DNA of 44,480 nucleotides from Zoogloeaceae bacterium (GTDB taxonomy: Bacteria > Pseudomonadota > Gammaproteobacteria > Burkholderiales > Rhodocyclaceae), in NCBI GenBank assembly GCA_016791025.1, contig JAEUNX010000102.1, positions 1 to 44,480 on the forward strand, written 5' to 3'. Numbering within the stretch: position 1 is the stretch's first letter; the number at the start of each line of letters is the position of its first letter. Below, piece after piece: positions 37,559-41,561 of the stretch. The notes below the pieces were generated by a model. That model did no database searches, was not told the DNA's origin, and saw only the letters and a program-made list of their open reading frames with translations. The translations under genes were made by a program, and so were the position numbers.

Positions 37559-39136
37559 TCACTTTTGACACTCCTTTCGAAGCACGGCAAGTAACTCGGG
37601 CGACAAGCTTTCGCCCAATTGGACCCGCTGCATCAGGGCTTCGCAACGGGCGGGGGAAACACTTCGCGACTCCGGGGCCGCCGCTTCCCTGCGCGGCGCC
37701 GGCCGGGGCACCTGGGCAGGCCCCATCGGTTTCACCACTGGCGCCGCAGGGGCCTTCGGCGCCGGCGGCTTGCTGACCGGGGCCTCGGCCTCCAGCGGTG
37801 CTGGGGGCGCAGGGGTCGGTGGCAGCGTCGCCGACCCGCGCTCACCCACCGCAGTGTCGGGAGGAAGTGGAGTCGGGGCGGCCAGTGGGCGTGCCGGCAA
37901 TTCCGCCGCGGGGAGGTGAACTGGGGGCGATTGAAGTGGGGGGGACGCCGGCGCCATGCCACTCCGCCCCCCCCACCAGAGCAAGCCCGCCGCCAAAACG
38001 ACCGCCACCGCCAGAATGGCCACCCACCACGGCCTGGTGAAGCGGGACACGGCGGGCGCCTGGGTCGGCACCGGAGGTGACGGGGTGTCTGACGCAATGG
38101 AGTGGGGCATCCGCGGTGCCATGCCCCGTACCGGGGGGTCTGCCACCGAAGCCTGGAGCGTCGCCGCCGTGATGCCCACACCCCCTTGCCCCCTCTTATC
38201 CTGGGACGGCGTCAGAACGATGGTGGCCTCCTCGGCCTCGCCTGGCCCGAACGCCGGAAGCGTCGCGGTGATGCCGGAACCCGGCACCGCAGCCATCGTT
38301 TGGAGCGTGGCCAAAGCCCGGGAGAATTCCGCCGCCGAAGCGAACCGGTTTTCGGGATCCTTGGCCAGGGCCCGGATGATGATCGCATCGAAGCCCGTAC
38401 CCAGCTCGGGCCGACGGACCGACGGGGGTGGCGGATCGTCATGGATGATCTGCTTTTGCACCGCCCAGACACCAGATCCCCCAAAGGGTCGGGCGCCGGT
38501 GAGACATTCATACAGCACGATCCCCGCCGCGAAGATATCGGTTCGGGACCCGACGGGCAGCCCCTGGATCTGCTCCGGCGACATATGGCTGGGGGTACCG
38601 ACCATGGTCCCGGCGACCGTGCGGTCGGTACTGCCATCGATCAGGCGGGCGACGCCGAAATCGGTGAGCTTGACCCGACCCTCGTCATCAAGCATGACGT
38701 TGGCGGGCTTGACGTCGCGATGGATAACGCCTTGCCGATGGGCGAACTCCAGGGCGTCAAGGAGTTCCCGCACGATGCGCACCGCCTCGGTCGCCGTAAA
38801 CCGGACGCCTTGGTCGAAGCAAGCCTTCAGCTCCCGCCCCTGAACAAACTCCATCACCAGGTAGCTCAAATCTCCTTCATCGCCAAAATCGAACACGGTG
38901 ACGATGTGGGGATGATTGAGCCGGGCGACTGCCTGGGCTTCACGAACGAAACGCGCCGACGCGTCGGTGAGGGTCCCGGCGTCGGCAAGGGCGCTGTGGA
39001 GGATGGTCTTGATCGCAACCCGGCGATTGAGGGCCGGATCCATCCCCTCATAGACCACCCCCATGGCGCCCTGACCGAGCACCCGGGTGATCTGGTAACG
39101 GCCCAGGCGAGCTGGCAGGCGTTGAGAACCCGTCAT
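37559..39136 (-). CDS. Transmembrane Hanks-type Ser/Thr protein kinase
   Basis: A 525-residue kinase. Kinase domain about 13-280: glycine loop GQGAMG (21-26), Lys43 in VAIK, catalytic HRDVKPANV (139-147, Asp141), DFG (159-161), then an activation segment rich in Ser/Thr ending SPE (186-188). A linker (280-365) and one helix (371-389) follow. The periplasmic part is mostly Pro/Ala-rich (395-490), ending in CEALMQRVQLGESLSPELLAVLRKEC with two Cys that could form a disulfide. This is the PknB-like layout but with no PASTA domain. Start at 39136 puts MTGSQRLPARLGRYQI at the domain edge; upstream in-frame Met codons add residues lacking support. It leads the OmpA-lipoprotein gene in a two-gene operon. 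Confidence 0.92.
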   Translation of the reverse strand: MTGSQRLPARLGRYQITRVLGQGAMGVVYEGMDPALNRRVAIKTILHSALADAGTLTDASARFVREAQAVARLNHPHIVTVFDFGDEGDLSYLVMEFVQGRELKACFDQGVRFTATEAVRIVRELLDALEFAHRQGVIHRDVKPANVMLDDEGRVKLTDFGVARLIDGSTDRTVAGTMVGTPSHMSPEQIQGLPVGSRTDIFAAGIVLYECLTGARPFGGSGVWAVQKQIIHDDPPPPSVRRPELGTGFDAIIIRALAKDPENRFASAAEFSRALATLQTMAAVPGSGITATLPAFGPGEAEEATIVLTPSQDKRGQGGVGITAATLQASVADPPVRGMAPRMPHSIASDTPSPPVPTQAPAVSRFTRPWWVAILAVAVVLAAGLLWWGGRSGMAPASPPLQSPPVHLPAAELPARPLAAPTPLPPDTAVGERGSATLPPTPAPPAPLEAEAPVSKPPAPKAPAAPVVKPMGPAQVPRPAPRREAAAPESRSVSPARCEALMQRVQLGESLSPELLAVLRKECQK

Positions 39137-39327
39137 GCCCACGTGATTTTTTTCCGGTGATTCTCCGCCACCTGGCCTCCCCGGGAACGCGTCCCGCATC
39201 TGAGAAAAAAGTATCGGGACTTCCCCCTGGCCGGTCAATCCGTCGTGCCCAAACAATGGCGAGCGCACGCCGGACCTCAGAGCGGACTAAGATGGAATCC
39301 GACCACCATTTTCCCCTGGAGATCGCC

Positions 39328-40017
39328 ATGTCCACGCCGCTGCCCATCCTTCAGGGGAAGCGCATCCTCGTCACCCAGGCAGATGCCTTCATGGGACCCG
39401 TTCTGAGCGAGGTGCTGGCCGGGCACGGCGCCACCGTCATCGCCAGCACGTCGCCCCTCGATGACCCATCCAGCCCCGCCACCGTCGTCGGGGAAGCGGG
39501 CGAAATCGACGTCCTGGTGGCGAATCTGGCGTTGCCGGCGCCCGGAACGGCGGCCCCGGAAGTGACGGAAGACGAGTGGCGGTCCGTCTTCGCCACCCTG
39601 GTGGATCCCCTCCCCCGCCTGTGCCGCGCGGTATTGCCCGGGATGATGACGCGAAGGTCCGGAAAGATTCTGCTGATGGGCAGCGCCTCCGCCCTGCGCG
39701 GTATGAAGCGCCGCAGCACATACAGTGCCGCCCGTGGGGCTCAACTCGCCTACATCCAGGCGCTGGGCGTCGAGATGGCCCCCCACAACATCCAGGTCAA
39801 CGCCATCGCGCAGAATTTCGTCGAAAACCCGACCTACTTTCCACCGGAAGTCCAGGCCGACCCCCGCTTCCAGGAACGCCTGAAGTGGGAGGTACCCCTG
39901 GGTCGCCTGGTCTCGGCCCGGGAGGACGCCGAATTTGCTGCCTATTTGTGTAGCGACGCGGCGAATTGCTTCGTTGGGCAAGTGTTTCCGGTCTGCGGCG
40001 GCTGGGCGCCACGCTGA
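39328..40017 (+). CDS. Halohydrin-dehalogenase-like SDR
   Basis: A 229-residue short-chain-dehydrogenase-fold protein that lacks the glycine-rich cofactor loop. In its place is T16-QADA-F21-M-G23, matching the T-x4-F-x-G nucleophile-pocket motif of halohydrin dehalogenases. The catalytic triad is Ser119, Tyr132 and Arg136 (S-x12-Y-x3-R), where ordinary SDRs have Lys in the third place. The segment ENPTYFPPEVQADPRF and VPLGRL near the C terminus also match that group. These enzymes form epoxides from vicinal haloalcohols, and open epoxides with halide, azide, cyanide or nitrite, without NAD(P). Start at 39328 has GGAG upstream; an earlier ATG at 39292 is possible. It stands alone, divergent from the kinase and upstream of the PhoX-like gene. 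No other dehalogenation gene is in view. Confidence 0.82.
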   Translation: MSTPLPILQGKRILVTQADAFMGPVLSEVLAGHGATVIASTSPLDDPSSPATVVGEAGEIDVLVANLALPAPGTAAPEVTEDEWRSVFATLVDPLPRLCRAVLPGMMTRRSGKILLMGSASALRGMKRRSTYSAARGAQLAYIQALGVEMAPHNIQVNAIAQNFVENPTYFPPEVQADPRFQERLKWEVPLGRLVSAREDAEFAAYLCSDAANCFVGQVFPVCGGWAPR

Positions 40018-40072: not shown

Positions 40073-40154
40073 GGCTGTGAAACCTGGCTCCGCGAGAGTG
40101 CCGGGCTGCGTGGATTCCCGCGTCACCCACCCACTCTCTCATCTGGAGTCGTGC

Positions 40155-41561
40155 ATGAAGCTTTCCGCCCTTTTTATCGCCCTCGCCGGGGCCTTCACCC
40201 TCAACGTCCAGGCCGGCGACATGGGCCCCAGCACCCACACTGCCCCGTATCTGGTAGCGTCCCCCGGGGTGGAACTGACTTCCATCCTGACCGTGGGGGA
40301 CAGCGTCAAAAAGAAGCACAAGGGCAACGAAACCTACCGTATGGTAGGCATTCCCGATGGCCTGGGTGCCTACGACAACGGCGACGGCACGATCACGGTG
40401 CTGATGAATCACGAATTGCGGGATACCGCCGGCATCGTGCGCTCCCATGGCGCCAAAGGGGCCTTCGTCTCCAAGTGGCAGATTCGCAAGAGCGACTTGA
40501 AGGTGCTCAACGGCGAAGACCTGATCCAGAACGTGGTACTGACCAGTGGCACCACCACCATCAACCGGCTGTGCTCCGCGGATCTCGCCGCTCCCTCCGC
40601 CTACTTCAACAGCAACACCGGCAAGGGCTTCAGCGAAGGCCGCATTTTCCTGAGCGGCGAGGAAGCCGGCGCCACGGGCCGGGCCTTTGCCCATCTGGCC
40701 TCCGGTCGCCAGCACGGGACCAGCTACCAGCTCCCCGCGCTCACCACGGCTTCCTGGGAGAACCTGGTGGCCAGCCCCTTCGAGCAGGACAAGACCATTG
40801 TCGCGGGCCTGGACGACGGCAACGCCAACGCCAGCAAGGTCTTCCTCTACGTGGGCACCAAGCAGGAGTCCGGTAACCCGGTGGAAATGGCCGGACTGAC
40901 CAATGGCACGGCCTACCAGGTGAAGATTGACGGCTACCCCACCGAGGGCAGCATCAATGGCTCCGTTGCCATTCCCAACAGCATCCATGCCAGCTTTAGC
41001 CTGGTGACCGACGGCAGCGGCAGCGGCCTCAACCGCGTGGAAGACGGCGCCTGGGATACCCAGAACCCCAACCGGTTCTACTTCGTCACCACCGACAGCT
41101 TCAGCGGCAACACCCGCTTGTGGCGCATGACCTTCCTCGACATTGCCCAACCTGAACTCGGCGGCAGCATCGAGATCCTGGTCAATGGCGCCGTGACCGG
41201 CCAGAAAATGCTGGACAACATGACCGTCGATGCCGCGGGCAACGTGCTGATGCAGGAAGATCCGGGCAACCAGTCCTATCTGGCCAAGATCTGGTCCTAC
41301 AACCCGGTGAGCGGCGCCCTCACCCAGCTCGCCGCCTTCGATCCCGCCCAGTTTGTCTCCGGCGCCCCGGCCTTCCTCACCCAGGACGAGGAATCCTCCG
41401 GCATCACCGAGGTCTCCCACCTCTTCACCGGCGTCGAAGGCTACGACACCGAGGGCTACCGCTACTTCCTTCTGGACGCCCAGGTGCACAAGAGCATCGC
41501 CGCGACTGATCCGGAACTGGTGGAAATGGGTCAGTTGCTGATGGTGAAGATCGCTAAATAG
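40155..41561 (+). CDS. Exported PhoX/DUF839-like protein
   Basis: A 468-residue protein with a Sec-type signal (residues 1-20, cleaved after NVQA). The mature part resembles the DUF839/PhoX group of metal-dependent alkaline phosphatases: [57 protein letters not shown] and [18 protein letters not shown] fit the repeated six-bladed propeller of the family. True PhoX enzymes use a twin-arginine signal and Fe/Ca cofactor; this signal has no twin Arg, so the substrate may differ. Start at 40155 has GGAG seven bases upstream. The candidate Pho box supports a phosphate role; a strong terminator follows the stop. Confidence 0.8.

Follow-up and report, generated by a model that had tools for sequence, protein, structure and literature searches.

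A very probable D-type halohydrin dehalogenase, stand-alone and patchily distributed, in a Zoogloeaceae bacterium

The window, a 44,480-nucleotide stretch of a Zoogloeaceae genome, contains a gene of the SDR type (Table 1) that raises two questions: whether its product is a halohydrin dehalogenase (HHDH) or an ordinary NAD(P)-dependent SDR, and which function such an enzyme could have in a region where we recognised no pathway for halogenated compounds near the gene. HHDHs are defined by the two motifs T-x4-F/Y-x-G and S-x12-Y-x3-R (PMC4989007), and NAD(P)-dependent classical SDRs by T-G/A-x3-G/A-x-G together with S-x10-14-Y-x3-K (PMC11976700). We found that the window gene very probably encodes a D-type HHDH, a cofactor-independent enzyme of the SDR fold. 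It is a new sequence of a type that has already been described and is not rare in related bacteria.

Table 1. Features of the halohydrin dehalogenase locus, in positions of the window
Feature	Position	Strand	Remarks
Very probable D-type halohydrin dehalogenase (HHDH) gene	39328..40017	+	229 aa, ATG start at 39328
Motif 1, Thr16-Gly23, T-x4-F-x-G	39373..39396	+	expected nucleophile-pocket loop (role as given in PMC4989007)
Motif 2, Ser119-Arg136, S-x12-Y-x3-R	39682..39735	+	expected catalytic triad
NPTYFPPE segment, residues 167-174	39826..39849	+	expected substrate-side loop
VPLGRL segment, residues 189-194	39892..39909	+	read from the sequence
Neighbour: divergent Ser/Thr protein kinase	37559..39238 (start approximate)	-	PF00069, E 3.7e-54; context, outside the enzyme
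Neighbour: 469-aa protein without family match	40152..41561	+	context, outside the enzyme

A preliminary description of this DNA had placed both HHDH motifs in the protein, and the translation of the open reading frame confirms them residue by residue: Thr16, Phe21 and Gly23 fit motif 1, and Ser119, Tyr132 and Arg136 fit motif 2. The NPTYFPPE and VPLGRL segments to which it had drawn attention are both present as well. At the sites of the SDR motifs the protein reads T-QADA-F-M-G and Y-SAA-R, which departs from the classical SDR signature, and a motif scan detected no glycine-rich cofactor motif. An alignment of 25 sequences showed F21, G23, S119, Y132, R136, N167-P168, Y170-F171-P172 and V189-L194 to be invariant, with T16 kept at 90% or more. 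The two motifs occur together in 79 of the 80 relatives from the species scan (the best 80 of 129) and at 31 of 32 order and family loci, some of which duplicate other loci; the two relatives without the full pair retain motif 2 and lack motif 1. By eye, two natural variants of motif 1 were seen, with Leu in place of Thr in Plasticicumulans acidivorans (L031) and Ala in place of Gly in L092 (genome G137). Neither classical SDR pattern was found in the 112 relatives scanned. Among the SDRs of the own genome, S-x12-Y-x3-R was present in none of six rows and S-x10-14-Y-x3-K in all six, two of these rows (L002 and L003) being one protein and a seventh (L008) having given no alignment. Motif 1 alone is not specific, as it also matches the L002/L003 protein, an ordinary SDR.

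The closest enzymes of solved structure are D-type HHDHs, in line with the identity initially proposed, and HheD2 was the best match by both sequence and fold. In a phmmer search against PDB sequences, HheD2 (337.7 bits) was followed by HheD8 (304.2 bits) and HheB (184.6 bits), with the dehalogenase 6a41 (118.5 bits) and the best cofactor-dependent SDR (89.4 bits) further down. HheG, HheA and HheC rank below some FabG reductases in this list, and similarity alone is therefore insufficient to define the HHDH family; such scores below SDR reductases are usual for HHDHs (PMC4989007). We modelled the protein with AlphaFold2 as a monomer from 25 sequences (mean pLDDT 80, pTM 0.80), the pocket loops 164-173 and 186-194 lying below pLDDT 50 and the NPTYFPPE and VPLGRL segments having low pLDDT. 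Foldseek ranked HheD2 first for this model (68-70% identity), the HheD8 mutant with chloride second (64%) and HheB third (45-46%).

HheD2 (PDB 7b73), from a gammaproteobacterium, has the same motifs as the window protein and near-identical substrate-side segments, but about 30% of the residues differ and it comes from another host and other surroundings. HheD8 (PDB 8xxb) shares NPTYFPPE and VPLGRL; its solved form is an engineered triple mutant, crystallised with chloride according to the title of the entry, and about one third of its positions differ from those of the window protein. The B-type enzyme HheB (PDB 4zd6) carries the motifs of the window protein except for Tyr instead of Phe21. 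FabG-type 3-oxoacyl-ACP reductases, which are cofactor SDRs, have the Rossmann fold and a Ser-Tyr pair in common with the window protein, but score no higher than the 89.4 bits given above and possess a glycine-rich cofactor loop and Y-x3-K, both of which are missing here.

The tree that the preliminary description had suggested as a check comprised 41 rows, namely 36 HHDHs (the query, 19 species-scan relatives, 11 order-level sequences and five solved enzymes, with HheA and HheG left out) and five SDRs of the own genome. All HHDH rows, query included, were split from these SDRs with support of 100/99, and the query grouped with HheD2 and HheD8, paired with L009 (100/94) and with L010 next to this pair (99/95). 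HheD2 itself paired with a Ferrovibrio MAG sequence (96/90). Long branches were flagged for HheC, HheB and three of the SDRs, and the position of HheB inside the D-like group, on its flagged branch, means that the border between D- and B-type is not clean. The identity of the window protein to HheD2 lies within the 57-95% that D-type sequences show to verified D-type enzymes, and the 19 motif-based HHDH picks that were tested were active (both PMC4989007).

Pfam and NCBIfam returned only generic SDR families for the protein, the NCBIfam matches shown all being below their curated cut-offs, so that automatic annotation would probably name the gene simply "SDR". Together with the limited specificity of motif 1, these matches speak for an ordinary NAD(P)-dependent SDR that carries both motifs by chance, a reading that we reject as very improbable: HHDHs are the best matches by a wide margin, the active site has Y-x3-R instead of Y-x3-K and lacks the glycine-rich motif, and the tree separates HHDHs from the own-genome SDRs.

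In the own genome, which is 79% complete with 2.5 Mb in 208 contigs, the HHDH gene is present once, among ten SDR-like places. The kinase that the preliminary description had named next to it is supported by its Pfam match, whereas the label "PhoX-like" for the downstream gene is unsupported, since Pfam gave nothing for this 469-aa protein at E ≤ 10, nor did any PDB match improve on E 0.47. By eye, the downstream protein likely has a signal peptide. Its gene occurs in two of 150 family genomes at E ≤ 1e-40, both of them in the genus. A promoter and terminator scan gave no promoter-like site on the + strand upstream of the HHDH gene and no terminator-like site. That gene or contig might be an assembly or binning artefact is hardly credible, even with both genus genomes fragmented (208 and about 180 contigs), and was rejected: a 3,144-base block from the kinase through the HHDH gene to the downstream gene is aligned at 83% with L009, which is apparently the congener contig G326:C43, and GC (66.7%) and GC3 (81%) of the gene are in line with those of its neighbours.

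The preliminary description had furthermore held that such enzymes are few, a view that our counts contradict. HHDH genes were present in both genomes of the genus examined, in 20 of 150 family genomes (own genome counted) and in 26 of 300 order genomes at E ≤ 1e-40 (own genome and four members of a divergent type counted), and a pattern-limited scan with one genome per species yielded 129 relatives. D-type sequences had been numbered up to HheD38 by 2016 (PMC4989007). The D-type gene is thus patchy yet not rare. It is also under purifying selection, with dN 0.064 and dS 0.69 (dN/dS about 0.09) against the congener sequence L009, dN 0.13 and dS 1.5 against L010, and dN 0.15 and dS 1.4 against L016.

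The four divergent members (L110-L113, from genomes G185, G276, G018 and G109; contexts L131-L134) are HHDH-like: they share 39-42% identity with the window protein and carry the motifs T-x4-Y-x-G and S-x12-Y-x3-R. Their hosts belong to one genus with genomes of 1.8-2.1 Mb, and they branch as a clade of their own (98/97), apart from the group that contains HheD2, HheD8 and HheB; for L110, the PDB search gave HheD8 and HheD2 as best matches, with about 188 bits. In three of the four, the gene adjoins a divergent photolyase-type gene. These sequences possibly represent an undescribed HHDH subtype.

The gene had been described as stand-alone, which proved right and holds generally. We counted neighbours at 90 loci (80 from the species scan, nine family regions and the window) with codon-model gene calls and the HHDH position fixed; Pfam scans of the nearest neighbours, based on earlier gene calls, covered 77 and 76 proteins and, of the 85 and 69 families obtained, the first 25 in each case. 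No neighbour family occurred at more than 12 of the 90 loci, and the commonest, ABC ATPase, was scattered in place and orientation. At least three of the nine family regions look like species-scan loci (L123/L021, L124/L026 and L130/L054), so that the 12 ABC ATPase loci are at most 11 distinct ones. The HHDH gene is thus a stand-alone trait without fixed partner genes. Smaller sets of loci do have surroundings in common: one block is shared by L010, L011, L012 and L015, and at four Zoogloea loci (L016, L027, L038 and L041) the gene has a two-partner secretion pair nearby, so called after the proteins of L016.

We compared HHDH identity with host kinship, using the Mfd protein of 18 host genomes, 17 of which were usable; for the L009 genome the only match was a distant helicase, and it was left out. 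Across these 17 hosts, several of them MAGs, Mfd identity to the window ranged from 81% to 46% and HHDH identity from 73 to 78%, a range narrowed by the choice of loci for high HHDH identity (Spearman 0.33, p 0.19). The 11 hosts without "MAG" in the title gave a similar picture (Mfd 54-81%, HHDH 73-78%; Spearman 0.36, p 0.28), and among family genomes HHDH identity to the window protein went down to 63%. Patchy occurrence, shifting location and an identity that barely tracks host kinship together suggest horizontal spread as the simplest reading.

How would the enzyme work? In HHDH catalysis, Ser positions the substrate, Tyr acts as the base, Arg lowers the pKa of Tyr, and the motif 1 loop lines the anion pocket (PMC4989007). 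From its characterised relatives, we infer HHDH chemistry for the window protein with confidence, and its catalytic steps, tetrameric assembly and cofactor independence would be theirs. Ser119 would hold the substrate hydroxyl while Tyr132, its pKa lowered by Arg136, takes the proton; the substrate oxygen would then displace the neighbouring halide to form an epoxide, and the loop around Thr16-Phe21-Gly23 would bind the released halide. In the reverse direction, epoxides would be opened by an anion such as halide, azide, nitrite or cyanide.

The sole contextual hint of a physiological role comes from five loci (L017, L018, L039, L049 and L061), at which the HHDH gene is immediately followed by a gene of HMG-CoA lyase type. 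The gene just ahead of HHDH in L018 and L049 is of biotin-carboxylase type, in L017 and L039 one gene separates the two, and an enoyl-CoA hydratase-type gene is nearby in four of the five; judged from these gene families, the loci are apparently a leucine-degradation cluster. In L061 (7943-10669), a biotin-carboxylase-type protein and HHDH are encoded in a single open frame of 908 residues, a fusion that is maybe a sequencing artefact, as the translation has an undetermined residue.

Could the enzyme then be an HHDH in ancestry and active site alike whose physiological work is other than dehalogenation? It would act on an epoxide or haloalcohol from the cell's own metabolism, perhaps that of branched-chain acyl-CoAs, or with a non-halide anion. 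We regard this as possible, though rather doubtful. The five loci with HHDH between biotin-carboxylase-type and HMG-CoA lyase genes would fit such a role, but the window gene lies outside a cluster of this kind, the arrangement is missing at 85 of the 90 loci, and the five may be one lineage. HheC is encoded together with an epoxide hydrolase, and the authors of that work consider the compounds tested on HheC as probably not its natural substrates (PMC11976700), which also speaks for another role. So does the own genome, in which PF06441 (EHN-type epoxide hydrolase) found no match; against this, the genome is 79% complete and PF06441, which matched in one of 14 controls, was the single informative hydrolase family (PF02332 matched in none of the 14). 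Among the literature matches listed for the physiological role, the natural substrate or leucine degradation, PMC11976700 is the only one in which the enzyme is mentioned. The broader notion that D-type HHDHs, as single-gene traits of wide occurrence passed on horizontally, naturally serve to handle an epoxide or haloalcohol of the cell itself, possibly one from the catabolism of branched-chain or isoprenoid acyl-CoA, and not to dehalogenate xenobiotics, appears distinctly unlikely to us. With low confidence and at about an even chance, we weakly favour a stand-alone, horizontally spread function in detoxifying or salvaging small haloalcohols or epoxides.

HHDHs are in use as biocatalysts. Since some D-type members show outstanding thermostability (PMC4989007), a further sequence of this type is of modest practical value for such use. 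The wider point concerns the biology of the family: this is an epoxide enzyme that is patchily distributed over environmental Proteobacteria, with no fixed partner genes and no agreed natural substrate, and the loci of the apparent leucine cluster make one specific role of HHDHs testable.
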